From IMG/VR virus record IMGVR_UViG_3300025030_000459, positions 1 through 20,866 of that record: 20,866 bases of DNA, one strand, 5' to 3'. Position numbers and translations under genes: made by a program. Positions 5,515 to 20,866 of this stretch are shown piece by piece. The stretch is from a virus. The number at the start of each line of letters is the position of its first letter. The first letter of the stretch is position 1. Under the pieces are notes generated by a model, which did not search any database, had not been told where the DNA came from, and saw only the letters and a list, made by a program, of their open reading frames with translations.

Positions 5515-5545
5515 CAAAGATAATAAAAATTAACTAAAAAGTCAA
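5515..5545 (-). promoter_or_regulatory. Bacteroidota-type promoter for the DNA polymerase
   Basis: On the minus strand TTG (5543-5545) is followed by exactly 20 bases and then TATCTTTG (5515-5522). This is the primary sigma factor pattern of Bacteroidota (TTG at -33, TAnnTTTG at -7). It is the only host-type promoter seen on the minus strand. Confidence 0.75.
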
Positions 5546-5567
5546 TGGTTTTAATCTTATTTTCATA

Positions 5568-6155
5568 TTATTTTATTATATCCCATTCACCTTCTTTATT
5601 TTTCATTTGAAATTTTCCTTTAATATTATATATCTGATAAGGAAATTCATTCATCCAGAATAATTCTTTTCCAAAATATACATCCCCAACATTATTTGTG
5701 AAATTAACGGAATTAATGTTAAACCATATAATTGAAGTTAACCATACATTATCTTTATTATTAAATATAATATTATTTCCCATTTTATTAAGAGATTGTA
5801 ACCACACATTACCTTTATTATTAAATTGTATATTATTTCCCATTTCTTTAAGAAAATTTAACCATACATGACATTTATTATTAAACACAATATTATTTCC
5901 CATTTCTTTAAGAGAATCTAACCACACATAACCTTTATTATTAAATTCAATATTATCTGGAATATATGTTATTAAATCAGAATTAATATAACCACCACCA
6001 ATAATAATCTTATTGTTTTTTATTTTATAAGGATATTTTTCCTTATTTAATATATCAATAAATTCTTTTCTTAAAGAACCTTCCGAAGGGAAGGATTCAT
6101 CAATAATATTTTCAATTAATCTTTTAAATTGACTTTCTGTGATTACTATTTTCAT
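5568..6155 (-). CDS. Tandem-repeat protein with MKIxITExQF N-terminal motif (paralogue 1)
   Basis: Function unknown. The N-terminus MKIVITESQFKRLIENIIDE (1-20) is a short amphipathic helix shared with the gene at 17086-17658. Residues 68-147 hold four 20-residue repeats of the form NNIxFNNKGxVWLxSLKEMG, encoded by 60-base imperfect tandem repeats (about 5708-5950), which suggests a solenoid fold. The C-terminus (from VNFTNNV, 150) is also shared with the paralogue. A GC-rich hairpin (6079-6094) lies in frame near codons 21-26. The AT-only motif just upstream matches that of the paralogue. The product may be a virion or host-contact protein, but that is inference. Confidence 0.8.
   Translation of the reverse strand: MKIVITESQFKRLIENIIDESFPSEGSLRKEFIDILNKEKYPYKIKNNKIIIGGGYINSDLITYIPDNIEFNNKGYVWLDSLKEMGNNIVFNNKCHVWLNFLKEMGNNIQFNNKGNVWLQSLNKMGNNIIFNNKDNVWLTSIIWFNINSVNFTNNVGDVYFGKELFWMNEFPYQIYNIKGKFQMKNKEGEWDIIK
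5708..5950 (-). repeat. Four 60-base tandem repeats inside the repeat-protein gene
   Basis: The plus strand shows TTATTTCCCAT, then TTAAGAGA, then AACCACACAT and CTTTATTATTAAA recurring every 60 bases. Units differ at a few positions and encode the 20-residue repeats. The exact period with no indels indicates expansion by unequal recombination or slippage under coding constraint. Confidence 0.8.
6079..6094. repeat. GC-rich 6-4-6 hairpin inside a coding region (copy 1)
   Basis: CCTTCC-GAAG-GGAAGG is a perfect 6-base stem with a 4-base loop in strongly A+T-rich DNA. It is the reverse complement of the hairpin at 17302-17317 in the paralogous gene, where it sits at a different codon position. 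Here it encodes the FPSEG segment after the N-terminal motif. Confidence 0.7.
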
Positions 6156-6160
6156 ATATT

Positions 6161-6174
6161 CTTATATAAATATT
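6161..6174 (-). promoter_or_regulatory. Candidate late-type promoter motif
   Basis: On the coding strand this reads AATATTTATATAAG, ending five bases before the ATG of the repeat protein. The same motif with the same five-base spacing precedes the paralogue at 17658, and related copies precede the virion genes. If it is a -10 element, the mRNA would be almost leaderless. Chance occurrence in A+T-rich DNA is the main doubt. Confidence 0.4.
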
Positions 6175-8090: not shown

Positions 8091-8122
8091 TTTGAAAATA
8101 TTATTTATTTTACTTACTTTTA
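8091..8122 (+). promoter_or_regulatory. Variant Bacteroidota-type promoter
   Basis: TTTG (8091-8094), 20 bases, TACTTTTA (8115-8122). Spacing and flanks match the other promoters (TTATTT, TTACTTAC before the box), but the last G of TAnnTTTG is A. The leader to the ATG at 8166 carries ATTATTAATC and AAAAACA. Confidence 0.6.
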
Positions 8123-8165
8123 TACCCCGATTAAATTATTAATCAATTTCAATATTTTAAAAACA

Positions 8166-8471: not shown

Positions 8472-9297
8472 AAAATATCAAGATAAACCATCAATAAAAT
8501 TAAATATTGATTATATAATTGATTTATATACAAATAAAAAAATATCTTGCTCAAAAATAGCTAAAATTCATAATCTTAATAAATCGACAATAAGAAGAAT
8601 ATTAATTAAAAATGGCATAGATACAAGTTTAAAACCTAATAAATATTATACAAACAGAAAAAATAAAATTTTAAAAATGATCCATAAAGGATTTAGATTT
8701 CAATATATTGCTAATAAATATGGAATAACTAAACAAAGAGTTAATCAAATTGCTTATAATAATAAAATTCATCGTCAGAAAAATATAAGAAAAAAATATA
8801 AAAAATTAATAAATAAAATTTATCAATATGTTCAAAATAATCCATATGCCACATATCAAGATATACGAATAAAATTTAATTTAACTTATGGAGATATGGG
8901 AATTTTAAGAAATTATCATGGATTAAACTTATCATTATCTTCTATATTACAAAATAGAAATAAAAGTATTATTAATGATTATTTCAACAATAAATTAACT
9001 GCTACCGATATAATTAATAAAAATTATGGTATAACAACTCAACAAGCAATATATAAAATATGTTATTCAAGTGGTCATTATCATAAGTTAAGGACTAAAT
9101 ATAATTTAAAAAAAAGATATTTTGAAAAAAAAGAAATTTTTGATTTGATTTTTAATTTAAGAAATAACAAAAAAATGAATTTTAAAAATATTTGTAACTA
9201 TTTAAATGATAATAATTATAAAACAATATATGGAAGAAAATTTAGAATTAACAATGTTAAATACAAATATAATAAATCAAAAGAATTATTAAAATAA
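8461..9297 (+). CDS. Multi-helix-turn-helix DNA-binding protein, 278 aa
   Basis: Four HTH-like units can be read: residues 17-52 (KISCSKIAKIHNLNKSTIRR), 69-102 (FRFQYIANKYGITKQRVNQI), 118-152 (YATYQDIRIKFNLTYGDM) and 168-202 (LTATDIINKNYGITTQQAIYK). Near 234-262 there is a recombinase-like segment (FKNICNYLNDNNYKTIYGRK) resembling the domain that follows the catalytic core in large serine recombinases. No catalytic domain is present. The protein is extremely rich in Lys, Asn and Ile. It could be a transcription regulator, or the DNA-binding part of a lost recombinase or homing enzyme. Confidence 0.75.
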   Translation: MKTKKYQDKPSIKLNIDYIIDLYTNKKISCSKIAKIHNLNKSTIRRILIKNGIDTSLKPNKYYTNRKNKILKMIHKGFRFQYIANKYGITKQRVNQIAYNNKIHRQKNIRKKYKKLINKIYQYVQNNPYATYQDIRIKFNLTYGDMGILRNYHGLNLSLSSILQNRNKSIINDYFNNKLTATDIINKNYGITTQQAIYKICYSSGHYHKLRTKYNLKKRYFEKKEIFDLIFNLRNNKKMNFKNICNYLNDNNYKTIYGRKFRINNVKYKYNKSKELLK

Positions 9298-9326
9298 ATG
9301 AAGGCACTGATAAAACTTAAAATTTT

Positions 9327-9551
9327 ATGAAAACATTTGAGATGACTGGTTCACCTAAACCACTTTTTGAAACAAAAGAGGATTTTGTTAATTTTATGGA
9401 ATCCATGGGATTTACTCATACAGGACTAAACAAAGAAACAAATTTACTTATAACAAACGAATTAAAATCAACATCTGGTAAAATGAAAAAGGCCTTTAAA
9501 TATAATATAGAAATAAAATCTTATAAACAAATATTTAAAGAAATTAAATAA
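9327..9551 (+). CDS. Stand-alone BRCT-domain protein, 74 aa
   Basis: The sequence reads as a single BRCT domain of the NAD-dependent DNA ligase type: FEMTGSPKP (strand 1), a helix EDFVNFMESMGF, the turn GLNKETNLLIT (where ligase BRCTs have V-x-K-x-T-x-x-L-V), SGKMKKAFKYNIEIKSYKQI (usual S-x-K-x-x-K-A then hydrophobic-I). No nucleotidyl transferase or other domain is attached. BRCT domains bind DNA ends or phosphopeptides. The gene lies in a plus-strand run with the HTH protein and the ExoX-like small protein. I am fairly sure of the domain; the role is unknown. Confidence 0.75.
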   Translation: MKTFEMTGSPKPLFETKEDFVNFMESMGFTHTGLNKETNLLITNELKSTSGKMKKAFKYNIEIKSYKQIFKEIK

Positions 9552-9559
9552 AATATATT

Positions 9560-9772
9560 ATGAAAAATAAAACTTTGGGTTTTGGAAAATATAAAAATAA
9601 AAAATTAGAACAAATTGCAATTATCGATCCAAATTATATTTTTTGGTTATTAGAAAATAAAATAATCAATATCTCTAATGGTATTCAAGAATTAGCATCA
9701 GAAAATATTTCATTAGATCCAATGCCACCAGATCTTGATATGGTTCATGAAGATTGGGGTGATAGAGATTAA
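9560..9772 (+). CDS. ExoX C-terminal-like / DUF3820-type small protein, 70 aa
   Basis: Residues 7-31 carry the pattern F-G-K-Y-K-x-K-x-L-x-x-I-A...D-P-x-Y-I-x-W-L-L, the signature of the small domain found at the C-terminus of exodeoxyribonuclease X-like proteins and as the stand-alone DUF3820 family. The remaining 38 residues are acidic (DPMPPDLDMVHEDWGDRD). No nuclease domain is present. It begins 8 bases after the BRCT gene. Family recognition is from the motif only. Confidence 0.7.
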   Translation: MKNKTLGFGKYKNKKLEQIAIIDPNYIFWLLENKIINISNGIQELASENISLDPMPPDLDMVHEDWGDRD

Positions 9773-9827
9773 ATAAATATATTATATTCATCAACTATGT
9801 TATACAGTAAGGATTTATATTAAAAAA

Positions 9828-10979
9828 TTAAATAACCTCTTTTTCAAATATGCGTTTATTATAATTTTTTTTTAACTGTTTTAAAATTTCCTTCATTTTT
9901 TCTTCAATATTTTCATCATACTTAATAATATATAAGGGAATATTATTATCTTTACAATAATTTTTTTTTATTTGATCTCGTTTTTTTATTTCTTTAAAGT
10001 TATTTATCCCGCCCCAATATTCTATTGGTTCATAATGTTGAATACCATCAAATTCAATACAACCAATTTCTGGAATATAAAAATCAAATTTTAACGGCCA
10101 CTTATATCTACAATAAATAAATATTTTTTGTCTTTCATATTTTATAATAATTTTATCTAATATTTTAAATATTTCTCTTTCTCCTCTAGATTCTCTGCAA
10201 TATATACACCCACACCCACTTAAATGGGTGGTTGGTGTCTGTTCAAAAATTCCACATTTAGAACAAATTATCTCTACTTTAGTTTTAGCATTTATATAAT
10301 TTACTTTAGAGTAATCATATTTATTACCATGTATTTTAATTGCTTTTTTTATGAATTCTTCTGTATTACTATTATAATTCCCACTACAATATTTACACCC
10401 ATTCCCTCTTAAATGTATATCTGGAGTTTGCTCGAATATGTGGTTTGCTTGACAAATAATCTTAATTTTTGTATTATTATTTACATACTCTGATAATGAA
10501 TAATCATATTTATTATTATGAATTTTATTAGCCATTTCTATAAATTTTTCTTTACCCAATATTTGTTTTATACTATTAGATTTATACCCACAAAATTTAC
10601 ACCCATTCCCGCTTAAATGTTTATCTGGAATTTGATTAAAAATACCATGTTGTTTACAAATTATTTCTACTTTAGTTTTAGCATTTATATAATTTACTTT
10701 AGAGTAATCATATTTATTACCATGTATTTTAATTGCTTTTTTTATGAATTCTTCTGTATTACTATTCTTTTTTTCACCGCACGATTTCCTTCCACAAAAT
10801 ATGCAACCAGAGCCATTATTTATATGTGTTGCTGGAATTTGACTAAAATACCCATGTAATTTACAACCAATGATAACCTTAGTATAATAATTTATATATT
10901 TTACCTTAGAATAGTCATATCTATTTCCATGAATTTTTTTTGCTTCTTTTATAAATTCTTCAGTTGTTTTTCTTCTCAT
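9828..10979 (-). CDS. Zinc-finger-repeat PD-(D/E)XK endonuclease, homing-endonuclease-like
   Basis: Four repeats of about 56 residues (7-62, 75-130, 143-198, 206-261) each carry FIxxAxxIHGxKYDYS, a CxxH/CxxC pair and a closing GCxxC, reading as small zinc fingers. The C-terminal domain (265-355) has FDFYIP (Asp299), IEFDGIQHY (Glu309, Asp311) and RDQIKKNYC, matching Vsr/DUF559-like PD-(D/E)XK nucleases. The plan resembles phage free-standing homing endonucleases with repeated DNA-binding modules. Repeats 2 and 4 share an exact 101-base DNA stretch. The gene overlaps a small ribbon-helix-helix gene by 20 bases, suggesting coupled and repressed expression. Confidence 0.8.
   Translation of the reverse strand: MRRKTTEEFIKEAKKIHGNRYDYSKVKYINYYTKVIIGCKLHGYFSQIPATHINNGSGCIFCGRKSCGEKKNSNTEEFIKKAIKIHGNKYDYSKVNYINAKTKVEIICKQHGIFNQIPDKHLSGNGCKFCGYKSNSIKQILGKEKFIEMANKIHNNKYDYSLSEYVNNNTKIKIICQANHIFEQTPDIHLRGNGCKYCSGNYNSNTEEFIKKAIKIHGNKYDYSKVNYINAKTKVEIICSKCGIFEQTPTTHLSGCGCIYCRESRGEREIFKILDKIIIKYERQKIFIYCRYKWPLKFDFYIPEIGCIEFDGIQHYEPIEYWGGINNFKEIKKRDQIKKNYCKDNNIPLYIIKYDENIEEKMKEILKQLKKNYNKRIFEKEVI
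10273..10373 (-). repeat. Exact 101-base direct repeat, copy A
   Basis: This stretch is identical to 10666-10766, offset by 393 bases (131 codons). It encodes repeat 4 of the zinc-finger nuclease. Silent sites are identical too, so the duplication or gene conversion is recent. Confidence 0.85.
10666..10766 (-). repeat. Exact 101-base direct repeat, copy B
   Basis: Identical to 10273-10373 and encoding repeat 2 of the same nuclease. Repeats 1 and 3 differ clearly, so only this pair was recently homogenised. Confidence 0.85.
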
Positions 10980-11112
10980 AATTTTTTATTTTTTTTTTAA
11001 TAAATTCTCTTATGTCTTTTGACATTGATATATTATTTAATTTGCAATATTGAAAATATTTATTAAATAATTCTTTTTTTAATCTTATATTAACTCTTCC
11101 GTTTTGTTTCAT
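10960..11112 (-). CDS. Ribbon-helix-helix (Arc/CopG-type) regulator, 50 aa
   Basis: The product has RVNIRLKKELFNKYFQYCKL followed by NISMSKDIREFIKKKI. A short RVxIRL strand followed by two helices with the S-x-x-I-R-x-x-I pattern is the ribbon-helix-helix fold of small dimeric repressors. It starts at ATG 11112 and its 3' end overlaps the nuclease gene by 20 bases in another frame. A perfect palindrome TGTACGTACA lies 26 bases upstream and is the obvious operator candidate. Likely job: autoregulate the regulator-nuclease pair. Confidence 0.75.
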   Translation of the reverse strand: MKQNGRVNIRLKKELFNKYFQYCKLNNISMSKDIREFIKKKIKNYEKKNN

Positions 11113-11138
11113 AATATTATATTTTTAAATTATTAACT

Positions 11139-11148
11139 TGTACGTACA
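11139..11148. promoter_or_regulatory. Palindromic operator candidate for the RHH regulator
   Basis: TGTACGTACA is a perfect 10-base palindrome and stands out in an A+T-only region. On the minus strand it lies just downstream of TATATATTTATATA (11147-11160), which resembles the motif before the virion genes, and 26 bases before the ATG. Dimeric RHH proteins bind such short palindromes. Confidence 0.5.
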
Positions 11149-11215
11149 TATATAAATATATAATAGAATAGCAAAAAACTAATTATTTTAATTTTTTTTA
11201 AAAAAATTTTCTATC

Positions 11216-13051
11216 TTAAATTGTTATTCTTCCTGATTTTACAAAAACTTTTATATCTTTTTCAGGGAATTTTATTTCAAACATGCTTGATGGTTCTCCG
11301 AATAGCGTAAAATCAATAAGTTTAATTTGTCTGGTATTATTATTTAACAATTCTTGGGAAATCTCGTTTAAACTATATTTACCACCTCCCACTTTATTGA
11401 AAATTCTGGTCTCTATAATGTTGATAACTCCTGGTTGATTATTAATTTTTTCTATTAAATTTCCAATATATATATTTTCATTCATTGTATGTTTTTTTAT
11501 ATCTAATTCGTCAGTTACAACACTTATAACATTTGATGCAATCTCACTTTGAGAAAATTGTTGATCAATGAAAAGATCAAATTCAAAAGAAAGATTTATA
11601 ACTCTTCCATCACTTACTTCAACATAATCATTTAACATTCTGAATTCTGTAAGATATTCGGCAATATTTTCTTTTAATGTTTGGGTTGAGGTGTTATCTA
11701 ATTTACCATTTTCATCCAATGCTAATATTTTAACTTTAACTTTATTTTGTTCTTCAAAGCAGCTATTTCTAAATGCACTTCCAAATTTCCCCGGAATTTT
11801 CATAATTTGACTCATATAATCCCGTACAGTAGTCGTGCGCAATTGACTCGAAAAATTATAACTTATAAGTTTTCTCATTTCTTCAATACTTAATTCGTCT
11901 TTTCCACCCAAGCCAGGAACAGGGTTAGAAACTTCTAATGATGTCCTTACAGATCTATTTATATCTGCCCGAGGACCATCAACTGTCATATTTACATTTC
12001 CAACTTCTGTCAAAACATTACGACCAATATTTGAATCTGCGCCACCACCAACTCTATATCGTATAAAAATAGTAGTTCCCACAACTGGACCTTGGCCTAG
12101 TGCATTATTATTAAGAAAATCTCCTAATTGAGTTTCAAATCCAGTTCCTTTTATAACATTTTCATATATTTCTGATTGAAAATCAGATCCAAAAGTAATT
12201 TTACAAAAACCGTTTGGAGTATATTCTTTAATAAATCGTTTATTAGCTGTTTTCCAAGTTCCAGGAACAACCCCACTTCTATCACTAACTCTGGTAAAAT
12301 CTTCTTTAAATATAGAATCTTGTGCAAGATGTTCTACTTCAAAAAATCTCCTATCATCATCTAAAAATTCATCAATTGTTGGGGTTCTGATGAAATTAGT
12401 ACCTTCTAATGAAATACATTGTTCAATAGAAATAACATCTTTATCTGGTAAAATAATTTCAAAAAAAGGTTTAATATCTTCTGCAGTTATAACTCGTTTA
12501 AAAATTTTTGATACACCATTAATAACCAATTCTCTTTTTGTTATTTTATAATTTTGAATTTTATCATTTGCATCAATATTAGGAATAATTAATCTATTTG
12601 GTGCTCCTCCCCTTCCAAATGGTGAACTAAAATCAATTTCTTCAGTAGTTTCATAGACCTTTCCAGCACCAATTGCTTGAGTCCCAGGTTTTAATATTGG
12701 CAAATATTCTTTTGAAAATGTATCTCCAAATGTTGGTACAGTTACAGAAAAATCAACTATTGTTATTGCTGGTTTTTTACCACCTATTTTCAGTCCCATA
12801 TTAGCAGCATGCCCAAATAAAGACCTTTTTTCTTGTGCTTGTTGGAGTTGTGTTTCCTGGAAATTTCTGTCAATTGTAAAATTTAATTGGTCGGCAACCG
12901 CAGCATTTAGTTCAACAAGAAGAGAATAAATTGAAGAATCATTAAATGAACTGATTAAATCAGGATAATATTGTTTTGTGAAATTTATAAGTTGTTCCCT
13001 GATTTCTTGAAAATTACGTTTATCGTAAGAAATTGCTTGCTTTAGTGCCAT
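11216..13051 (-). CDS. gp6: Baseplate wedge protein, T4 gp6 / baseplate J-like
   Basis: The protein joins neighbouring wedges in the contractile-tail baseplate. The 611 residues compare with 660 in T4 gp6. The N-terminal region DSSIYSLLVELNAAVADQ (38-55), the beta-rich middle with YLPILKPGTQAIGAG, and the later ELSIEEMRKLISYNFSSQ...TTVRDYMSQIMKIPG and a C-terminal NNQPGVINI are the features of this family. It is transcribed on the minus strand, like the gp25-like gene, but separated from it by a plus-strand island. The AT motif at 13073-13085 is identical over 13 bases to the one before the gp25-like gene. Confidence 0.87.
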   Translation of the reverse strand: MALKQAISYDKRNFQEIREQLINFTKQYYPDLISSFNDSSIYSLLVELNAAVADQLNFTIDRNFQETQLQQAQEKRSLFGHAANMGLKIGGKKPAITIVDFSVTVPTFGDTFSKEYLPILKPGTQAIGAGKVYETTEEIDFSSPFGRGGAPNRLIIPNIDANDKIQNYKITKRELVINGVSKIFKRVITAEDIKPFFEIILPDKDVISIEQCISLEGTNFIRTPTIDEFLDDDRRFFEVEHLAQDSIFKEDFTRVSDRSGVVPGTWKTANKRFIKEYTPNGFCKITFGSDFQSEIYENVIKGTGFETQLGDFLNNNALGQGPVVGTTIFIRYRVGGGADSNIGRNVLTEVGNVNMTVDGPRADINRSVRTSLEVSNPVPGLGGKDELSIEEMRKLISYNFSSQLRTTTVRDYMSQIMKIPGKFGSAFRNSCFEEQNKVKVKILALDENGKLDNTSTQTLKENIAEYLTEFRMLNDYVEVSDGRVINLSFEFDLFIDQQFSQSEIASNVISVVTDELDIKKHTMNENIYIGNLIEKINNQPGVINIIETRIFNKVGGGKYSLNEISQELLNNNTRQIKLIDFTLFGEPSSMFEIKFPEKDIKVFVKSGRITI

Positions 13052-13072
13052 TTTTTATATTGGTTATGTTTC

Positions 13073-13085
13073 TATTATAAATATT
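13073..13085 (-). promoter_or_regulatory. Candidate late-type promoter motif before gp6-like gene
   Basis: On the coding strand AATATTTATAATA, 21 bases before the ATG. It is identical to 16510-16522 upstream of the gp25-like gene. The extended region (13076-13090) is a palindrome of A and T, so orientation alone does not prove a promoter. Confidence 0.5.
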
Positions 13086-13111
13086 TATAATTGAAAATAA
13101 TTCACTTTTTA

Positions 13112-13143
13112 TTTGGATAATTCAAATATTTTACTTACCTTTG
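13112..13143 (+). promoter_or_regulatory. Bacteroidota-type promoter of the second accessory island
   Basis: TTTG (13112-13115), 20 bases, TACCTTTG (13136-13143), then TATTATAATTAACC and the AAAACTTAAAAACA leader to the ATG at 13178. Confidence 0.8.
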
Positions 13144-13177
13144 TATTATAATTAACCTTTTTTAAAACTTAAAAACA

Positions 13178-13798
13178 ATGAAAACAGAAAAGGAGAAAAA
13201 ATATGAAGAAGGGTTAAACGCATATATAAGAGACAAAAGAAAGGGACTTATGGACTATACAGGAATGTTTAAAGAACGTTATGGGGATAAAATAACTCAT
13301 CCACTAGATGGTGAAGAAATGAAAGAGTATAAACATTTACAAAATGCTAAAAATACTGAAGAACAAAATTTCAAAGAACTAATAAAAGCAATAACTAAGG
13401 ATTATGCAAATCAAATTATTAATCCCCCAATAACAGAACAAGATTTTTTAAGACCACTTATAACAAACGGAGAAAAGAGACTTATTTACTACAAAAAACT
13501 ATTAGAAGAAGTTCATAGGGATAAAATAACTTGGCCACCAGATGATGAATTTGTTAAATGGTTTAAAGATTTTTTACGAGATAATAAAAATGAAGAAGAG
13601 CAATTATTAAAAAAATATAGAAAAGAAATGACTTATGCAAACCAAGGTCTTAATCCTCCTCGCTTTTATCCACCAGAAAATGCTGAGGATAAACGAAAAT
13701 GGTTTGACGAACTTCGTGCTACACATATCAATATCAATAAAAAAGAAGAGGGCAATAATAATATTTCAAAAGAAAATCCATTTGCTAACAATAAATAA
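13178..13798 (+). CDS. Hypothetical charged protein with internal duplication, 206 aa
   Basis: Unrecognised. Two halves align: DKITHPLDGEEMKEY (near 37), EEQNFKELIKA, YANQIINPP (77-85) against DKITWPPDDEFVKWF (near 115), EEEQLLKKYRKEM, YANQGLNPP (152-160). The unit is about 75 residues: DKIT-x-P, a charged helix pair, YANQ-x-x-NPP, suggesting a duplicated helical domain. The C-terminal 30 residues are Asn/Lys-rich and probably disordered. No Cys and no membrane segment. It is the first gene behind a strong host-type promoter, so probably an abundant early protein. Confidence 0.75.
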   Translation: MKTEKEKKYEEGLNAYIRDKRKGLMDYTGMFKERYGDKITHPLDGEEMKEYKHLQNAKNTEEQNFKELIKAITKDYANQIINPPITEQDFLRPLITNGEKRLIYYKKLLEEVHRDKITWPPDDEFVKWFKDFLRDNKNEEEQLLKKYRKEMTYANQGLNPPRFYPPENAEDKRKWFDELRATHININKKEEGNNNISKENPFANNK

Positions 13799-13805
13799 TT
13801 TTTTA

Positions 13806-13837
13806 TTTGGATATGTCAAAAATTTTACTTACTTTTG
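13806..13837 (+). promoter_or_regulatory. Bacteroidota-type promoter
   Basis: TTTG (13806-13809), 20 bases, TACTTTTG (13830-13837). The leader TTAATTTATTAACTAAT...AAAACTTAAAAACA runs to the ATG at 13884. Confidence 0.8.
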
Positions 13838-13883
13838 TGATTAATTAATTTAATTTATTAACTAATATTAAAACTTAAAAACA

Positions 13884-14147
13884 ATGAAAAAATTAACAAA
13901 AAAGGAATCAAAGAAAAGAAAATTAAAAAAAGATGATAAAACAAATTCCCCACTTAAAACTGTTTCAACAATTGCTTTATTGGGTGAAATTTTTGGCAAA
14001 ACGGATAAAGAAAAAAATGATTGGAAAAAAAGAATGCTTGGTACAATACATGGATTATCTTTTCCTGATGATTTTGATACTCTACCTGAAAAAGAGCGCA
14101 GTCGTAGATTGGACGGAGTTATCAATATTGGGCTTGGAAAAAAATAA
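13884..14147 (+). CDS. Hypothetical basic protein, 87 aa
   Basis: Unrecognised. The N-terminal 18 residues are almost all Lys, Thr, Ser, Glu and Arg (KKLTKKESKKRKLKKDDK), followed by a helix (TVSTIALLGEIFGKTDKEK) and a C-terminal half with LPEKERSRRLDGVINIGLG. The charged N-terminus suggests nucleic acid binding, but that is weak. An overlapping minus-strand frame exists; the plus-strand frame is chosen because it has its own promoter and standard leader. Confidence 0.65.
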   Translation: MKKLTKKESKKRKLKKDDKTNSPLKTVSTIALLGEIFGKTDKEKNDWKKRMLGTIHGLSFPDDFDTLPEKERSRRLDGVINIGLGKK

Positions 14148-14184
14148 TTATTTAATTTATTAACTTTTTTAAAATAAAATACTT

Positions 14185-14376
14185 ATGCAAACAGGAATAT
14201 CAGATATTCAAAAAATGCCAGATAATAATATAGAAATTACTTTTTGTACATATCCCAACTGTGAGGATTATTTGACACTTACAATTGATGAAAGAACAGC
14301 TTGGGAAATTCATGACTTTTGTCAAAAAAAATTAAGTTATGGGGCACAATTAAAAAATGAAAAAATCAAAAAATAG
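14185..14376 (+). CDS. Hypothetical small protein, 63 aa
   Basis: Unrecognised. Reads as beta strands followed by a helix: ISDIQKMPDNNIEITFCTYP, YLTLTIDERTAWEIHDFCQK. It contains three Cys. The leader (TTTAATTTATTAAC, then AAAATACTT) is a weaker version of the standard leader with no TAnnTTTG box, so it is probably expressed from the promoter at 13806. It overlaps the next gene by 20 bases. Confidence 0.6.
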   Translation: MQTGISDIQKMPDNNIEITFCTYPNCEDYLTLTIDERTAWEIHDFCQKKLSYGAQLKNEKIKK

Positions 14377-14539
14377 AAAATTAACATATAAAGAAAGAAT
14401 TAAATGGTTTATTGAAAATTATTATGAAACAGGGATGGAATATGGGATTTTATTAGATGATATGAAAAATAAAGACCTTGATAATTTTAAATGGTATGAT
14501 GATATTATAAAAATACCAAAATACACAAATAAAATATAA
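14357..14539 (+). CDS. Small protein, paralogue of the C-terminal domain at 7313-7714
   Basis: The 60 residues match residues 65-116 of the 133-residue protein: RKLTYKERIKWFIENYYET, GMEYGILLD, NFKWYDDIIKIPKY. DNA identity over about 150 bases is high, with most changes at third positions. Function unknown; the domain is probably a compact helical unit with many aromatic residues. The stop is followed 4 bases later by the ATG of the next gene, so the two are in one transcript. Confidence 0.7.
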   Translation: MKKSKNRKLTYKERIKWFIENYYETGMEYGILLDDMKNKDLDNFKWYDDIIKIPKYTNKI

Positions 14540-14543
14540 AGTT

Positions 14544-14885
14544 ATGGAAAAATCAAAAGAAGATTATTTTATTGAATTATTAAAAGTTTTAAAACCAAAA
14601 ACTCTTAATGAATATCCAGATTCAATATTTTATATTTATAAAGATAAATTTTATATTGAATACAATAAAAGAATTAAGTATGCCTGGTTAAATTATAATA
14701 GAATTTGGTCAATTTTTGAATCTAAATATCATTGTAGCTGTCGGGAAATCAAGGAGATAACTGGTCATCTGTTGGAAGAACATTTAAAATTGAGGAGACC
14801 AACAACTGGTAGTGAGGTCATAATGGTTATTGATATGTTGGAAAAACATTTAAAATTGAATGGAGTAACAACTATAAATAATTAA
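14544..14885 (+). CDS. Hypothetical protein, 113 aa
   Basis: Unrecognised. It starts with a helix (EDYFIELLKVLKPKT), followed by a beta hairpin with a Tyr/Lys-rich stretch (SIFYIYKDKFYIEYNKRIKYAW), a Cys pair (YHCSCREI) and two similar helical segments (LLEEHLKLRRPTTG and MLEKHLKLNGVTT), a small internal repeat. It lies between the small paralogue and the RNA ligase, 15 bases before the latter, and is probably co-transcribed with it. Confidence 0.65.
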   Translation: MEKSKEDYFIELLKVLKPKTLNEYPDSIFYIYKDKFYIEYNKRIKYAWLNYNRIWSIFESKYHCSCREIKEITGHLLEEHLKLRRPTTGSEVIMVIDMLEKHLKLNGVTTINN

Positions 14886-14900
14886 TTTAAGTTATTTTTT

Positions 14901-16016
14901 ATGTTAAAAATCCAAACATATCTAAAACAACATGGTTTAGAGAAAACCATAAATGATTTTGATTTGATATATAAAGAATATGATAATAGGTTTCTTTTAA
15001 AATATAAACAAATTGATTCTGATTTTTCAAAACAAGAAGTAAGGGAATGCAGAGGACTAATATTAGAAAAAAATACTTATAATGTAATATCTTTGGGATT
15101 TAAAAAATTCTTTAATCACGGGGAACAATGGGCCAGTAAAATTGATTGGGATTCTGCTGAAATACTTGAGAAAATAGACGGTTCTTATATTCAAGTTTAT
15201 AATTATAATAATAAATGGTATATGGGAACATCTGGAACTGGAGAAGGTGAAGGAGAAGTTAATAATAAACCAGGATTAACATTTAATAATTTATTTAATA
15301 AAATATTAAAAGAAAAATATAATTTAACATTAAATTCTTTTAACCCACAATATATTTATATTTTTGAATTAACAACCCCATATAATATTGTTGTTACCCC
15401 TCACAAAGAATCAAAAATTACGTTATTAACGTTACGTGATTTACATAATCTAAAAGAATTATCAAGAGAAGATGTTTTAAAAACAGGACAATTATATAGT
15501 TTACCAGTAGTTAAATCTTTTAATTTTAAAGATAAAAATATTCAAACCTTAATAGACACATTTGAAAATATGCCGTATTATGAAGAGGGATATGTGATTG
15601 TTGATAAATATTTTAATAGAATTAAAATAAAAAATCCAAAATATCTGGCAGTACATTATCTCAAATCAAGTACTGCTCAACATCATATATTAATAATCAT
15701 AAAGTCAAATGAAATTGAAGAATATGTTTCAACAATTCCTGAAAGAAAGGATGAATTATTAAATTTAAAAGAAAAATATGATTTACTACTTAAAAGATTA
15801 AATAATATATGGGATAATCTGTTAGAAAAACCAATAAATATAACAAAGGAGGAAAGAAAATTATATGCTCAAAGAGTTTTTAATATCTGCAAACAAAATA
15901 ATATTGAATTATTCACTGGATTATTTTTTACGCTGATTGATAAAAAAGTATTATCAGTTAATGAATATTTAATAAATTTTGATAATAAAAAATTATATGA
16001 GTTTTTAAACAATTAA
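14901..16016 (+). CDS. rnlA: RNA ligase, T4 Rnl1 family
   Basis: Rnl1 enzymes join RNA ends in an ATP-dependent reaction via a lysyl-AMP intermediate; in T4 the enzyme reseals tRNA cut in the anticodon loop by a host defence nuclease. The 371 residues compare with 374 in T4. Motif I is EKIDGS (90-95, nucleophile Lys91); then YIFELTTP (153-160, motif III region), EEGYVIVD (228-235, motif IV) and IKIKNPKY (241-248, motif V lysines). The C-terminal helical region is present. It is the last gene of the plus-strand island and overlaps the converging gp25-like gene by 4 bases. No polynucleotide kinase gene is in view. Confidence 0.92.
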   Translation: MLKIQTYLKQHGLEKTINDFDLIYKEYDNRFLLKYKQIDSDFSKQEVRECRGLILEKNTYNVISLGFKKFFNHGEQWASKIDWDSAEILEKIDGSYIQVYNYNNKWYMGTSGTGEGEGEVNNKPGLTFNNLFNKILKEKYNLTLNSFNPQYIYIFELTTPYNIVVTPHKESKITLLTLRDLHNLKELSREDVLKTGQLYSLPVVKSFNFKDKNIQTLIDTFENMPYYEEGYVIVDKYFNRIKIKNPKYLAVHYLKSSTAQHHILIIIKSNEIEEYVSTIPERKDELLNLKEKYDLLLKRLNNIWDNLLEKPINITKEERKLYAQRVFNICKQNNIELFTGLFFTLIDKKVLSVNEYLINFDNKKLYEFLNN

Positions 16017-16492
16017 AATTTTAAAATAACTGTATCTTTACTTTCAAAAACTCCCTCATTTATAGAAAAATCTATTTTTACACTAATTGAATTTCCTTCT
16101 TCTCCTGATGATGTGTTTAATTTTCCCTTTATATGTGTTTTTGTAATTAAACCACCCTGTTTATCTATAATTGTTTGATCTAAACTTGTATCATCCAAAT
16201 CTGAAACATCGTCCATTTTTACTTCAATATTGTTGATTGTGAGATTAGGAATCCATTTACTTATATCTTCCTGAAGTGAACTTTTTATATCTTCATAAGT
16301 ATCATTGTCATTTGGTTCAAATAAAAATTCAAGTAATCTTGTACCAAAGTCAACATTATATAATCTTTCTCCCTTTCTGGTTAAAAGTAAATGTATGAGA
16401 TTTGATTTAATTTCTTCTGCTGATGTTTTTGTAGTTGCAAGAAAGAATCCTTTCGGATCTTCCTCAAATGGAAATTTTATGCCTATTGACAT
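16013..16492 (-). CDS. gp25: Baseplate wedge protein, gp25/gpW family
   Basis: The family is a core part of the contractile-tail baseplate wedge and of related injection machines. Residues 31-90 carry the signature: NLIHLLLTRKGERLYNVDFG, TRLLEFLFEP, then DIKSSLQEDISKWIPNLTI. The length of 159 is slightly longer than T4 gp25 (132) owing to an extended C-terminus. The gene is the last of the right-hand virion block on the minus strand. In P2-like phages gpW is followed directly by gpJ (gp6 homologue); here a 2.9-kb plus-strand island separates them. Confidence 0.9.
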   Translation of the reverse strand: MSIGIKFPFEEDPKGFFLATTKTSAEEIKSNLIHLLLTRKGERLYNVDFGTRLLEFLFEPNDNDTYEDIKSSLQEDISKWIPNLTINNIEVKMDDVSDLDDTSLDQTIIDKQGGLITKTHIKGKLNTSSGEEGNSISVKIDFSINEGVFESKDTVILKF

Positions 16493-16509
16493 TTAATTAT
16501 TGTTTTTTT

Positions 16510-16522
16510 TATTATAAATATT
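16510..16522 (-). promoter_or_regulatory. Candidate late-type promoter motif before gp25-like gene
   Basis: On the coding strand AATATTTATAATA, 17 bases before the ATG, identical over 13 bases to the copy before the gp6-like gene at 13073-13085. Confidence 0.5.
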
Positions 16523-16545
16523 GTCATTTATTTTATTATATATCT

Positions 16546-17085
16546 TTAAACTTTAACAAAATCTCCCTCTTTTAAAAAATTTGAATCTTTTAAAATAAAT
16601 TTGGCACCAATTTCATTCGGGTCATCTGGAATTGAAATATTTAATGAATCCCTTCCAGAAAAAAATAACTTTATTTTTTTTATTTCTGGTGTTATGTCTA
16701 TATTTTCAATTTTACTATCCAATCTTGTTTTAAATATACTATCATCTTTTTTTAAATTATCTGTTCTTTCAATTTGTTCATTATCAAATAATTGTTTACT
16801 CTTAGTTATATCAAACGTTCCCTTTATCTGTTTTTCTTCTGTTTGAGTAATTTGATTTAACAAATCAATGTCTTTATTTTTAATATCTTCAATTATATAA
16901 TAAAATTCTCTACCATTTGATACAGATATAAATTTTGGTCTTAGTTCTGGTAATGATTTCCCTGATATTTTATAATTTTTAATGGTTTTAGATTCAATTT
17001 TTCTATAATCATCTATAATATCAGAAGAAAATCTTCTTCTAGTATCCAACCCCAAATTTGTTAAATTTAATTTAAATATTGTCAT
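16546..17085 (-). CDS. Probable virion protein, 179 aa, unassigned
   Basis: Unrecognised. It is beta-rich at the start (TIFKLNLTNLGLDTRRRFSS) and end (IKLFFSGRDSLNISIPDD, KEGDFVKV), with a charged middle. Placement directly upstream of the gp25-like gene on the same strand, inside a block of baseplate-type genes, suggests a baseplate or tail component. It starts immediately after the stop of the repeat-protein gene, so the two are probably one operon. The C-terminal FLKEGDFVKV is like the ends of small OB or LysM-type tail proteins, but I cannot name it. Confidence 0.7.
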   Translation of the reverse strand: MTIFKLNLTNLGLDTRRRFSSDIIDDYRKIESKTIKNYKISGKSLPELRPKFISVSNGREFYYIIEDIKNKDIDLLNQITQTEEKQIKGTFDITKSKQLFDNEQIERTDNLKKDDSIFKTRLDSKIENIDITPEIKKIKLFFSGRDSLNISIPDDPNEIGAKFILKDSNFLKEGDFVKV

Positions 17086-17658
17086 TTATTTTATTATTTC
17101 ATAATTACCTTTTTTATCATTATATATTTTAAATTTTCCTCTAATATTATATAACTGATAGGCGAATTCATTTCCCCAGAATAATTCTTCTCCAAAAAAT
17201 ACATTTTCAACATTATTTGTGAAATTAACAGAAAATGTATCAAACCATATAATTGAATATAAATTTACATTACCTTTATTATTAAACTTAATATTATTTC
17301 TCCTTCCCTTCGGAAGGTTATTTCCCATTTTATTAAGAGAAGATAACCATACATACCCATGATTATTAAATATAATATTATTTCCCATTTCTTTAAGAGA
17401 AGATAACTCTAAATAACCATTATTATTAAATTCAACATTATCTGGAATATATGTTATTAAATTTGAATATATATCATCACCACCAATAATAATTTTATCC
17501 ACCCCTGCGGGTGGTTGTTTATTCTTTTTTATTTTATAAGAAATATTTTTTTTATTTAATATATCAATAAATTCTTGTCTTTTAATATCATTATTATTCT
17601 CGTCAATAATATTCTCAATTAATTTTTTAAATTGATTTTCTGTGATTATTATTTTCAT
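17086..17658 (-). CDS. Tandem-repeat protein with MKIxITExQF motif (paralogue 2)
   Basis: A 190-residue paralogue of the protein at 5568-6155. It shares the N-terminus (MKIIITENQFKKLIENIIDE), the YIPDN segment, units of the 20-residue repeat (here fewer and less regular, such as MGNNIIFNNHGYVWLSSLNK) and the C-terminus (VNFTNNV, NEFAYQLYNIRGKF). Compared with paralogue 1 it has two extra eight-residue segments, QPPAGVDK near residue 48 and LPKGRRNN near 115, each encoded by a 24-base insertion around a GC-rich hairpin. It is embedded in the virion operon, touching the next gene, which hints that the family is made late and may be structural. Confidence 0.8.
   Translation of the reverse strand: MKIIITENQFKKLIENIIDENNNDIKRQEFIDILNKKNISYKIKKNKQPPAGVDKIIIGGDDIYSNLITYIPDNVEFNNNGYLELSSLKEMGNNIIFNNHGYVWLSSLNKMGNNLPKGRRNNIKFNNKGNVNLYSIIWFDTFSVNFTNNVENVFFGEELFWGNEFAYQLYNIRGKFKIYNDKKGNYEIIK
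17294..17324. repeat. GC-rich 6-4-6 hairpin insertion with 7-base direct repeats (copy 2)
   Basis: CCTTCC-CTTC-GGAAGG (17302-17317) is flanked by TTATTTC on both sides (17294-17300 and 17318-17324). The paralogue and neighbouring repeat units have only one TTATTTC at this place. The insert is therefore 24 bases: 17 new plus 7 duplicated. It is the reverse complement of the hairpin at 6079-6094. Confidence 0.75.
17499..17514. repeat. GC-rich 6-4-6 hairpin insertion (copy 3)
   Basis: CCACCC-CTGC-GGGTGG forms a perfect 6-base stem with a 4-base loop. Alignment to the paralogue shows a 24-base in-frame insertion here. On the coding strand it is flanked by ATAAA on both sides, which could be a 5-base duplication. 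Its sequence differs from the other two hairpins but the architecture is the same. Confidence 0.65.
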
Positions 17659-17663
17659 ATATT

Positions 17664-17677
17664 CTTATATAAATATA
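17664..17677 (-). promoter_or_regulatory. Candidate late-type promoter motif
   Basis: On the coding strand TATATTTATATAAG, ending five bases before the ATG. The 19 bases ATTTATATAAGAATATATG up to and including the start codon are shared with the paralogue at 6155. Confidence 0.4.
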
Positions 17678-17681
17678 ATTA

Positions 17682-18980
17682 TTAATTATAAACAACAAAA
17701 GATTCTGATACATATGATTCACCAGAATCTGATGTGTCTAATTTCCAATTTGATAGTGAGGTTGTTCCATACTTACTTAATCCTCCCACATAACTATTAC
17801 TTACCGCATTTCTAATATCCAATTCAAATTTAATACTTATTCTTCCACCAATATCAAAACTACTGTCTGTTTTTGGTTTTAAAACAATTGGTTTTGAAAT
17901 ATAGTGATTTGTATTTAATTCTGTAAATAAATTTAAGTTTTTATCTGTATTTGTTAAATAATATTCAACAAAATGTTGTAAATAATCTATTCTTGATTTT
18001 ACTAATTGCCTGTTAAATAATTTTAAATATTGATTATTAAATGCTTTATCTTTATTTATTAATGATTCTTCCATTATATTATTAATTGTTTTACTAGTGG
18101 TAAGTTCAGTACCTTTAACAAATCCTAAAAGTACATTTTCATTAATTCTAATTTGTTCTACATTAAATTGAGATGTATTATTAAATTGTCTCCCAATGAG
18201 TGCAGCAGGAACAATATAAGCATTATTTATATTATCTTTTATATCTTTTTGTTGAAAGTCAAATTCTTTCTCTATATCCGAGATTCTAAAATATGTTTTA
18301 GAGTTAATATTCTCATTTGAAGAACTATTACTATGAATATTTGAATAATATCCATAAGATTCTGGCTGTATTAGTATTCCCCCAGGTCCAGCACCAGTTA
18401 TTAAATCACTGCTAAACTCATTTGAAAATTTATTTAATTCATTATCATAAGAAGATAAACACAGTACAAATGGTGATTTAAAAATATCTTCATCCTTTTT
18501 TTCTAAAATTTTATTATCATTTATTATTCTATTATCTTTAGAATCAATTAATTGATTTATATTAAAAAATCTACTAAATCTTATTATTTCATCATAAGAC
18601 CCACTATCTGGAATAAATTCTATTTTTTTTCTTATAATATCTGATGAATTATCACTTTTTTCAATATGAACAAATACTTCTGACCAAAAATCTGCAAAGG
18701 GCGATTTTAAATTATTATCAAATTTATTATCAATTACTTTACCTTTTTTACCTTCTGATGATTCTGCTAACATATATTTAATCATTCTATCCAATTTAAT
18801 TGTGATATCCAAATTATGATAAAATGTGGTATCTCCAGATTTTATATAATCATCATTTTTTTTAAACTTAATTTTCCTGGTTTCTGTACGTTGTTTTATT
18901 CTAACAGAATCCAATAAAGATTGTTTATTTTTTTTTGATAATATTATTGGATTAGATATTTTTAGTTGAGATAATTTCAT
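17682..18980 (-). CDS. Probable virion structural protein, 432 aa
   Basis: Unrecognised. Large, Ser/Asn/Asp-rich and without membrane segments or Cys clusters. Segments such as FADFWSEVFVHIEKS, GAGPGGILIQPESYGYYSN and FDIGGRISIKFELDIRNAV suggest a beta-rich structural protein. The last strand reads ESYVSESFVVYN. It starts 5 bases after the stop of the 100-residue gene, so it is in the same transcript as the baseplate-type genes. A baseplate, tail or fibre-attachment component is the best guess. Confidence 0.75.
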   Translation of the reverse strand: MKLSQLKISNPIILSKKNKQSLLDSVRIKQRTETRKIKFKKNDDYIKSGDTTFYHNLDITIKLDRMIKYMLAESSEGKKGKVIDNKFDNNLKSPFADFWSEVFVHIEKSDNSSDIIRKKIEFIPDSGSYDEIIRFSRFFNINQLIDSKDNRIINDNKILEKKDEDIFKSPFVLCLSSYDNELNKFSNEFSSDLITGAGPGGILIQPESYGYYSNIHSNSSSNENINSKTYFRISDIEKEFDFQQKDIKDNINNAYIVPAALIGRQFNNTSQFNVEQIRINENVLLGFVKGTELTTSKTINNIMEESLINKDKAFNNQYLKLFNRQLVKSRIDYLQHFVEYYLTNTDKNLNLFTELNTNHYISKPIVLKPKTDSSFDIGGRISIKFELDIRNAVSNSYVGGLSKYGTTSLSNWKLDTSDSGESYVSESFVVYN

Positions 18981-18985
18981 AATTA

Positions 18986-19288
18986 TTATTCTATGTTTAT
19001 ATCAGTTATACCGTCCAATTCCCCATTAAATATTGGAATAAATACTTTTATTTTATGTTTAATATCTGTTTCTGCAATAGATTTTACACATCCTGTATCA
19101 TCACCAGTTAAATCTGGAATATTACCAGTTGGTAAAGGATTATCAATATTATAATTAGTATCAGAATCTCCCAAAGAAAAACTTACAATAGTTTTATCTT
19201 GTATATTTTTGGATAATAATCTATTTCTACCTAATGGTGTTAAATAAGCATTTAATGTTATAGTGTCTCCAGATTCAATAAATCCCAT
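18986..19288 (-). CDS. Probable tail or baseplate protein, 100 aa
   Basis: Not assigned to a named family. The N-terminal section TITLNAYLTPLGRNRLLSKN, followed by IVSFSLGDSDTNY, has the look of a small virion protein in which a tail-associated strand-helix is followed by a G-D-S-D-x-N-Y turn. It is the first gene after the small membrane-protein gene that interrupts the minus-strand block, and has its own candidate late motif (19304-19316). It is followed closely by the 432-residue gene. Confidence 0.7.
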   Translation of the reverse strand: MGFIESGDTITLNAYLTPLGRNRLLSKNIQDKTIVSFSLGDSDTNYNIDNPLPTGNIPDLTGDDTGCVKSIAETDIKHKIKVFIPIFNGELDGITDINIE

Positions 19289-19303
19289 TTGTTTATTATT
19301 TTT

Positions 19304-19316
19304 TTATATAAATATT
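19304..19316 (-). promoter_or_regulatory. Candidate late-type promoter motif overlapping a divergent early promoter
   Basis: On the coding strand AATATTTATATAA, 15 bases before the ATG of the 100-residue gene. Its upstream end overlaps the -33 box (19315-19318) of the plus-strand promoter, so use of the two may be mutually exclusive. Confidence 0.45.
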
Positions 19317-19346
19317 TGTTTATTCCAATTATTTCACTTATCTTTG
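19315..19346 (+). promoter_or_regulatory. Bacteroidota-type promoter of the small membrane-protein gene
   Basis: TTTG (19315-19318), 20 bases, TATCTTTG (19339-19346), then TTATTAACTTAATTTATTAA and AAAACTTAAAAATT up to the ATG at 19393. Confidence 0.8.
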
Positions 19347-19392
19347 TATTCTTATTAACTTAATTTATTAATCTTTTTAAAACTTAAAAATT

Positions 19393-19566
19393 ATGAAAAA
19401 ATTACAAAAATATTTAAATTGGGTTGCTTTCGGATATCTTGGTGGAATATTGGGCATTGCCAATATAACATTTATAATGTGGCAATGGTGGGCGATTATG
19501 GTGCCAATGATAATATTATTGGTTTGGTGGGGTCACTATATGAAATATCATGATAAAGATTACTAA
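19393..19566 (+). CDS. Small two-helix membrane protein, 57 aa
   Basis: The frame runs from ATG 19393 to TAA 19564-19566. Residues 9-29 (LNWVAFGYLGGILGIANITF) and 31-46 (QWWAIMVPMIILLVWW) are two hydrophobic segments with a short turn, a positive N-terminus (MKKLQKY) and a charged tail (KYHDKDY), as in a small inner-membrane hairpin protein. It has a complete host-type promoter and the standard leader and sits alone between two minus-strand virion genes, the arrangement of a moron. Early expression and action on the host envelope (for example superinfection exclusion) are possible but unproven. Confidence 0.75.
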   Translation: MKKLQKYLNWVAFGYLGGILGIANITFIMWQWWAIMVPMIILLVWWGHYMKYHDKDY

Positions 19567-19571
19567 ATTTT

Positions 19572-20105
19572 CTACCCATCAAAAACATCTGAATCAATTA
19601 ATATACATGATATTCTTCTCCAATATGGTTTATAACCCATGATAGTTTTATTAAGTGAAAAATTACGATTGTCTGCATTAATAATTTCAAAATATCTCAT
19701 TCCCTTTGTTCCATCATTATATCCTAGGTAATCTCCTCTTTTTGGATCTACATTTTTTTCTTCTAATTGTTGAGTGAACACGCTCAGAGACATTTTTATC
19801 TGCGATTCACGACTTGTAATATTATCTCTTGTCTCTAATTCTGATTCCTCCATACTATCAATTCTAACTTTTAGCTCAACTGGTGGTAAGTAATGTTTTT
19901 CATGTGGCTTTGATTCACCATATAAATCATCAACTTGTGTTTTATTTATATCAATTCTAAATAATACTACAATAGTATTTAAATCACCCTCTAACCATTC
20001 TCTACCCATTTGTACTTCAAGATTAAATTCATCTTCATTAAAAAAAGATGAAATTCTGCGAAGAGGAAGGTGTTGTTTGATTTTATTACTTTTTTTGCCA
20101 GCCAT
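19572..20105 (-). CDS. Probable virion protein, 177 aa
   Basis: I cannot name the family with confidence. The N-terminal region has EVQMGREWLEGDLNTIVVLFRID, then TQVDDLYGESKPHEKHYLPP, then a beta-rich second half with KRGDYLGYNDGTKGMRYFEI and a closing GYKPYWRRISCILID. The pattern of a DDLYGE segment, PPVE and a GDYLGY barrel resembles small neck or head-completion proteins of T4-like phages in my memory. Its place at the head of the visible virion block fits. It starts 2 bases after a small remnant frame. The nearest upstream AT motif is weaker than the others. Confidence 0.7.
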   Translation of the reverse strand: MAGKKSNKIKQHLPLRRISSFFNEDEFNLEVQMGREWLEGDLNTIVVLFRIDINKTQVDDLYGESKPHEKHYLPPVELKVRIDSMEESELETRDNITSRESQIKMSLSVFTQQLEEKNVDPKRGDYLGYNDGTKGMRYFEIINADNRNFSLNKTIMGYKPYWRRISCILIDSDVFDG

Positions 20106-20107
20106 AA

Positions 20108-20230
20108 TTATTTATTTTTATATTCCCATTTATATCCCTTAGCTGTTTTTTGTCTCCTATTAATATTTCTTCTTATGTTACATAAATATATCATTGAATT
20201 AAAAAAAGTAAGTGTTATTAACATATTCAT
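20108..20230 (-). pseudogene. Possible remnant of a NUMOD-type homing endonuclease C-terminus
   Basis: A 40-codon frame from ATG 20230 to TAA 20108-20110. Its end, NIRRNINRRQKTAKGYKWEY, resembles the G-K-x-K-T-A-x-G-Y-x-W-x-Y ending of NUMOD1-like DNA-binding modules in phage HNH homing endonucleases. No HNH domain precedes it, and the upstream sequence is A+T-only. It lies just before the 177-residue gene, where a nuclease gene may once have inserted. The match is a short motif, so chance is possible. Confidence 0.35.
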
Positions 20231-20259
20231 TAAATAATAGAAATATATATAAAAAATAT

Positions 20260-20322
20260 TTAAAAAACAATAACTTTTTCCATTATTTGTTTTAATTGAT
20301 TTTCTGTTAATCTTATTTTCAT
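20260..20322 (-). CDS. Mini-ORF carrying the MKIRLTENQL motif, 20 aa
   Basis: The frame is ATG 20322 to TAA 20260. The peptide, MKIRLTENQLKQIMEKVIVF, is a third version of the N-terminal motif of the two repeat proteins (MKIIITENQFKKLIENIIDE). It begins 4 bases after the stop of the leucine-rich repeat gene, preceded by AAAACA. It may be a real short peptide or the surviving start of a lost gene of the same family, whose body has been deleted. Confidence 0.4.
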   Translation of the reverse strand: MKIRLTENQLKQIMEKVIVF

Positions 20323-20326
20323 TGTT

Positions 20327-20866
20327 TTAATTAATTACTGATGTATTTGGTAATAATTCCCTTATCTTTTTTAATTCAATATCAGATACATTCATTTGTT
20401 TTAAAGTTAAAAATCTTAAATTTTTAAAATTAGGAAACCTTTTTATTTGTTCTGATATTTTTTTTATGTTTTTATTTTCAGACAAATACAAACTTCGCAA
20501 TTTTGTTACTTTACTTAGTACCGGAGGAATTTCAGTAAATTCATTATGATTTATCATAACGTCAGTTAATTTTTTTAAATTACCTATACTTTCAGGTAAT
20601 GCTCTTAGATTATTATATGGGGCGGAAATAGCAGTTAAATTTTTTAAATTTCCAACTGATTCTGGTAAAGATGTTAAGTTGTTATTACCAACACTAAAAA
20701 TAGTCATATTGGTTAATCGTCCAATATCATCAGGTAATCGTGTTAATCCTAGGCCATGCAAATTTAAATTTAAGATATTTGGATCAACAAAACTAACCCA
20801 ACTTATAACTCCAGTTTTTAATAAAAATTTCCAATGATGAAATAATTTTCCAGATTCAATTAATGG
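20327..20866 (-). CDS. Leucine-rich repeat protein, N-terminus outside the window
   Basis: The open frame continues without a stop to the right edge, giving at least 179 residues; a TTG near 20761 is not a convincing start. Five LRR units of about 23 residues are visible: LTRLPDDIGRLTNM, LTSLPESVGNLKNL, LRALPESIGNLKKL, FTEIPPVLSKVTKL and a weaker last one. They follow the L-x-x-L-P-x-x-I/V-x-x-L-x-x-L plan of plant-intracellular/Shoc2-like LRRs. The upstream section (DPNILNLNLHGLGL) looks like a first repeat or cap. LRR proteins bind other proteins; in a phage this could be a virion adhesin or host-interaction protein. Confidence 0.8.
   Translation of the reverse strand, partial: PLIESGKLFHHWKFLLKTGVISWVSFVDPNILNLNLHGLGLTRLPDDIGRLTNMTIFSVGNNNLTSLPESVGNLKNLTAISAPYNNLRALPESIGNLKKLTDVMINHNEFTEIPPVLSKVTKLRSLYLSENKNIKKISEQIKRFPNFKNLRFLTLKQMNVSDIELKKIRELLPNTSVIN

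Follow-up and report, generated by a model that had tools for sequence, protein, structure and literature searches.

Short N-terminal signals that place proteins inside phage heads have been described in several systems. In phage T4, the prohead protease gp21 cuts after L/I-x-E, and the internal proteins carry propeptides of 10–19 residues which target them to the core (both from the cited passages of PMC9026906). In phage P1, the first 30 residues of DarB suffice to direct a reporter into the capsid, and the phage appears, as far as the cited passages go, to lack a separate scaffold (PMC9024508). In SPN3US, the prohead protease gp245 removes N-terminal propeptides, one of 20 and one of 24 residues, from two head proteins; these resemble the tag described below in their shortness, whereas the other N-terminal propeptides of that phage have 111–254 residues, and the cited part of that work describes no common tag on unrelated proteins (PMC10052503).

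The stretch of DNA studied here (the window) is an entire IMG/VR record of 20,866 bases. The original prediction, made from its letters, held that a recurring N-terminal motif occurs at three places in it, as a short helix reused at the start of repeat proteins that could be a virion-targeting or scaffold tag. A degenerate 33-nt pattern of the motif matched the window three times, each on the minus strand (6123–6155, 17626–17658 and 20290–20322), and the pattern in reverse, searched as a control, gave no match. The three copies indeed start where they had been placed, at 6155 (MKIVITESQFKRLIENI...), 17658 (MKIIITENQFKKLIENI...) and 20322 (MKIRLTENQLKQIMEKVIVF, then a stop), and the last is, as claimed, a stand-alone mini-ORF behind an LRR gene, 20 codons long and 4 nt past the LRR stop. 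The fourth trace reported at 5534–5566 is also present, but it does not read MKIRL with an immediate stop; the actual reading is MKIRLKPLTF and a stop. The features are as follows:

5534..5566, minus strand: ATG-led remnant MKIRLKPLTF plus stop, 10 codons, its first 16 nt being those of the mini-ORF start
5568..6155, minus strand: tagged repeat protein of 195 aa, paralogue of the 17086..17658 protein
6096–6155, minus strand: tag of the 195-aa repeat protein, residues 1–20, ends LIE15 and IDE20
17086..17658, minus strand: tagged repeat protein of 190 aa, paralogue of the 5568..6155 protein
17599–17658, minus strand: tag of the 190-aa repeat protein, residues 1–20, ends LIE15 and IDE20
20260..20322, minus strand: stand-alone 20-codon tag ORF, MKIRLTENQLKQIMEKVIVF plus stop, with the top tag score of the window (28.2)
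20327..20866, minus strand: LRR gene, C-terminal part, its start beyond the window and complete in G001

Positions 7221–20866 match the terminal part of G001, a contig of 76.8 kb, at 99.993% identity, and positions 5672–20866 match a further contig (G002) likewise; the window, G001 and G002 are the same phage. The complete LRR gene of G001 (62418–63731, 437 aa) is itself tagged, beginning with MKKTILITESQFENLVNTLLNEDD and carrying the tag MKKTILITESQFENLVNTLLNE. Other tagged genes in G001 are a third repeat paralogue (40749) and an 85-aa gene (60988), with a weaker tag on a 90-aa gene (36937), and G003, a 100-kb contig from a more distant relative, has seven tagged genes. Restriction of the motif to the two repeat paralogues had been named as the outcome that would tell against a reused tag; the motif extends beyond them, to further genes of G001 including the LRR gene.

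In IMG/VR the tag takes the form MKKxIRLTESDLxRIVKRVIxE or a shorter form, MKIxLTExQLKxxIxE. A 38-nt pattern for the short form matched 58 stretches in viral_contigs, and a 44-nt pattern for the long form at least 120. An ORF census over 251 sequences (250 loci and the window, many overlapping) yielded 356 motif-initial ORFs, with 283 distinct starts, falling into 184 body clusters (blastp 1e-4). One of these, an 18-aa match in immuto, was false and was removed. The tag thus forms the N-terminus in at least 183 protein clusters whose bodies are unrelated, although the tag copies have common ancestry and these counts are not independent trials; with more than 180 body clusters tagged, the idea that repeat proteins in particular reuse it does not hold. 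The alignment, which took 150 of the 172 clusters with representatives of at least 75 aa, has the long form as its consensus and no consensus residue downstream. When a 12-residue profile was applied to called genes at a cut-off score of at least 8, it was positive for 164 of 2855 gene starts as against 2 of 2217 equal-length internal stretches (15 contigs and the window), so that the site of the tag is the extreme N-terminus, like that of a T4-type capsid targeting sequence (CTS). In the richest contig (G017), 29 of 377 called genes are tagged, and of 20 control contigs, selected through an AT-rich pattern unrelated to the motif, one is tagged (G052, with five tags, retained in the count).

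Searches elsewhere gave little. A tblastn search of the phages collection with the 23-residue consensus gave no match, which is not evidence of absence because no query of that length can become significant against 2.3 Gb. Of the four phage records nearest by capsid protein, Mel-JY01 and immuto lack the tag, RM378 has one out-of-frame, chance-level match, and the environmental record LR756508 one weak match, also at chance level. No description of the motif was found in the open-licence PMC literature using motif strings and capsid-targeting or propeptide terms.

The downstream end of the tag is sharply defined. Counted from the E of TE, an E stands at +13 in 69%, I, V or L is favoured at +11, and conservation drops away past the +13 E. 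Of 183 tags, 159 have the signature [IL]xE no more than 18 residues from TE (mean 36 and maximum 51 in 200 shuffles), which leaves 24 without it; the signature is seen in 13 of 159 later stretches of the same tagged proteins; over whole contigs it occurs in 127 of 164 tagged starts vs 553 of 2452 untagged ones. Three length classes are evident, +9, +13 and +17, all with a terminal [ILVM]xE, the outer two differing from the +13 form by about one helical turn. As judged from its sequence, the [IL]xE end is the cleavage signature of the T4 prohead protease gp21. The residue that would follow the cut (P1') is, among the 113 tags with [IL]xE at +13, Q in 43, E in 14, N, D and S in 12 each and A in 3; alanine, usual though not required in CTS, is therefore mostly absent.

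The body of the tag fits well with a predicted amphipathic helix, the hydrophobic moment being maximal at 90–100 degrees, and its LTE-x-[DQ]-L start resembles, by general helix rules, a helix cap with a hydrophobic staple. The model of the 17086–17658 protein, which is of middling quality (mean pLDDT 72, three sequences), has a helix over residues 7–36 followed by short strands, at modest confidence; a fold search with it returned no match at E<=0.001. A subfamily with the start MKYLITESQ[LI]D..[IV]F.YLD was also observed (G019 2205–3200, locus L275; G021 152867–155379, locus L274). It is without [IL]xE, lies on the strand opposite the protease in G019, G021 and G024, and may represent an independent use of the motif.

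Synonymous codons at the conserved tag positions track background usage closely; it is therefore the peptide, not the DNA, that is conserved, and selection acts at the protein level. This bears on a reading in which a module of promoter and gene front has spread by recombination and the peptide is functionless. Such a module would account for the joint repetition of upstream region and tag in the window and G001, as well as for the frequency of adjacent tagged genes (41 pairs against about 10 expected, maximum 18 in 500 draws), an arrangement that is cassette-like, but it is already disfavoured by codons at background usage in a conserved protein, and the conservation follows the reading frame at the protein start; we regard it as extremely unlikely. 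A ATATTTATATAA-like motif does precede portal, scaffold, gp25-like and gp6-like genes together with some tagged genes in G001, G003 and the window, where its positions, with one variant for comparison, are:

6162..6173, minus strand: ATATTTATATAA motif upstream of the tagged gene at 6155, common to structural genes
17665..17676, minus strand: ATATTTATATAA motif upstream of the tagged gene at 17658
13076..13085, minus strand: variant AATATTTATA, upstream of the baseplate-wedge gene at 13051

An intergenic repeat of about 110–140 bp, with the core GTAAGTAAAAT, was also seen upstream of genes in the window and G001. It is possibly a divergent promoter region, and its copies in the window are:

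6156–6296, intergenic repeat
8057–8184, intergenic repeat
13070–13194, intergenic repeat
13786–13924, intergenic repeat
19302–19411, intergenic repeat

Tagged phages also possess the protease that the tag end calls to mind. The gp21-family protease PF03420 is present in G001 (E=1.1e-23) and in records behind tagged loci (9 of 16 in one set, 13 of 18 in another), including 11 of the 12 virus records of at least 149 kb from both sets. It was found in 2 of 20 control contigs of at least 40 kb, whose average size is below that of the tagged records; with a minimum of 75 kb, the protease occurs in 21 of 30 virus records with tags and in 2 of 8 controls. The cut-off for the T4-type capsid family is passed by 21 of 22 protease-bearing tagged records, the exception being G005, whose record ends about 2 kb after the protease, and by none of the nine protease-lacking tagged records tested. 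Because the latter fail the capsid cut-off as well, they appear to be fragments that lack the head module. The capsid proteins of all 21 tagged genomes have [IL]xE followed by A or S, aligned to LTE65 and A in T4 gp23, which is cut after residue 65; that of G001 (PF07068, E=5e-66) reads LNE followed by S at the gp23 site. INE, LNE and LSE are common to tag ends and capsid sites, with a mismatch at P1', which is A or S in the capsid proteins and mostly Q, E, N or D in the tags.

This mismatch could mean that the tag is not cleaved at all and instead docks accessory proteins in the virion, with the helix as an anchor on some helical partner of the head or tail and with the terminal E forming part of the binding surface or the end of the helix. 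Amphipathicity would suit such an anchor, and some bodies are like tail lysozyme or tape-measure families. However, conservation stops sharply after [IL]xE, the +9, +13 and +17 classes all retain the terminal [ILVM]xE, and an S77 protease is present together with matching capsid sites, and we consider docking without cleavage unlikely.

We suggest that the motif is probably an N-terminal capsid-targeting propeptide, like the T4 CTS in action and removable. An amphipathic helix, LTExDLxxIVxxVIxE, fused ahead of many unrelated cargo proteins, would dock on the prohead core during head assembly, so that the cargo would be built in; the gp21-family protease would cut after [IL]xE, a signature also found in the phage's major capsid protein; and the trimmed cargo, retained in the head, would pass into the next host along with the DNA. 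We infer this course of docking, cleavage, packaging and ejection from the sequences of tag, protease and capsid protein. The virion-targeting part of the original prediction fits the helix, the [IL]xE end, the gp21-type protease and the capsid site, with packaging and cleavage as its conditional steps, and nothing suggests that the tag itself is a scaffold. Several points speak against the propeptide reading: the P1' mismatch, the lack of enrichment near the protease (see below), the 24 of 183 tags without a site, the MKYLITESQ subfamily, the L127 MAG without PF03420, and the absence of sequence similarity to T4 CTSs.

The last but one of these concerns metagenome bins. A MAG of Bacteroidota contains one tagged contig and a MAG of Alphaproteobacteria contains three, a placement that may reflect noise in the binning. 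Bacteroidetes are the predicted hosts of large freshwater phages whose head module is T4-like, according to the cited passage of PMC9723584. The Bacteroidota contig L127 (164 kb) has a 53-aa tagged ORF, and PF03420 was not found in the MAG that contains it; L127 is perhaps a phage contig binned into the MAG.

What the tagged proteins do is visible for a small fraction. Pfam names few of the 150, among them LysM, lysozymes, M23, glucosaminidase, thioredoxin, LRR and InPase. An 836-aa tagged protein of G004 (L089:9070-11577) has the InPase domain (PF18823, E=4.8e-48) right behind the tag and matches the DarB-like antirestriction family phrog_10089 (E=9.5e-40) over residues 25–214, largely the InPase region; its matches to DarB-like and minor-head families thus come mostly via this domain. 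For phage InPase domains, packaging has been predicted in the cited part of PMC5512222. A possible parallel with the P1 DarB signal, also N-terminal, lies in this family match, while the difference is that one motif here stands on many unrelated proteins and the P1 work, in the passages cited, concerns DarB (PMC9024508).

Tagged genes share the strand of the protease more often than untagged ones (110 of 134 vs 1374 of 2090; Fisher p=6e-5, shared ancestry not being corrected for), with no clear strand bias in G012, G019 and G024. Their number within 8 kb of the protease is no higher than expected (9 of 134 against 11.1), and a tagged gene directly follows it in G005 and G018. Could the tag instead direct proteins to a place outside the virion, for example a host or phage complex or replication sites during infection? 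Most bodies are without assigned function, there is no enrichment beside head genes, and the MKYLITESQ subfamily frequently occupies the strand opposite the protease, all of which would suit that destination. The late-strand bias, the upstream motif common to structural genes, the prohead-protease consensus at the tag end and the DarB-like and lytic cargo point the other way, and a non-virion address appears very unlikely.

Taking the capsid-targeting propeptide as the preferred reading, the comparison with T4 can be made in detail. Like the T4 CTS of IPI, IPII and IPIII, the tag is N-terminal and is the sole part common to differing proteins (cited passages of PMC9026906 and PMC3012670); it begins with MK and ends with [IL]xE, and the tagged phages have a gp21-family protease and a gp23-type capsid protein as T4 does. 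Unlike the T4 CTS, its [IL]xE end falls mostly at residues 15–26, against 10–19 in the T4 propeptides as cited, its P1' is Q, E, N or D where IPI, IPII and IPIII all have A, and up to 29 tagged genes occur in one contig (G017). Similarity in sequence is lacking, the tag PSSM scoring the T4 CTSs all at −8.8 or lower (−18.0, −25.3 and −18.8 for IPI, IPII and IPIII), and by this measure the tag family is not the T4 CTS. There is perhaps an even chance that it constitutes a new capsid-address code, a helix-plus-cleavage tag unlike the T4 CTS in sequence, carried by an uncultivated group of T4-like phages, with about 29 swappable cargo genes per genome at most. If so, the full set of preloaded cargo (antirestriction-like, cell-wall and unknown proteins) could be listed straight from sequence by means of the tag, and the 12-residue profile would predict head-packaged, host-delivered proteins that are normally learned phage by phage via proteomics. 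It would also imply that capsid-address tags arose repeatedly or diverged past recognition.

The mini-ORF and the 5534–5566 trace are related to each other. The first 16 nt of the trace, ATGAAAATAAGATTAA, are the mini-ORF start; this stretch occurred in none of 100 shuffles, with 0.001 expected by chance, and the identity is more than chance. The mini-ORF carries IME15, with F as residue 20, and it ends at the position of the E in long-class tags. Strong tag starts with an ORF below 45 aa are rare (3 of 123 in 14 contigs), and tags broken by an internal stop are found in G001 (47844) and G003 (59638). Both features are probably what is left of tandem tagged genes that lost their bodies. In T4, too, a gene for a packaged protein occurs with a broken front: its record describes alt.-1 and alt.-2 as a duplicated first part of alt with a stop inside. 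That the mini-ORF is no relic but a functional free propeptide, for example a competitor for core sites or an inhibitor of the protease, is suggested by its intact state, by its top tag score in the window and by its start 4 nt past the LRR stop, which makes translational coupling possible. Since G001 and G002 are one phage (99.993%), conservation of the mini-ORF between them is no evidence either way, and given the rarity of stand-alone tags and the existence of broken ones we hold such a function to be quite unlikely.

Further observations were made in the window and G001. A TnpB/OrfB-like transposase ORF of 394 aa, named by eye, lies at 700–1884 (minus strand); because a 198-bp piece of this region is 99.5% identical to the end of the related G003, a mobile element probably breaks both assemblies. 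At 9828–10979 (minus strand), a 383-aa protein has several TEEFIxKAxKIHGNKYDYSKVxYINxxTKV repeats and, by eye, a nuclease-like end, and its gene contains DNA repeats (10195–10757 and 10384–10964). The sequence RKLTYKERIxWFIxNYYETGMEYGILLD is common to two genes, at 7313–7714 and 14357–14539 (plus strand), where the 88.6% DNA identity over 175 bp indicates a recent partial duplication. In G001, a 1315-aa ORF (41592–45539) with a portal-like start is about twice the usual length and may be a fusion or an intein-bearing gene.
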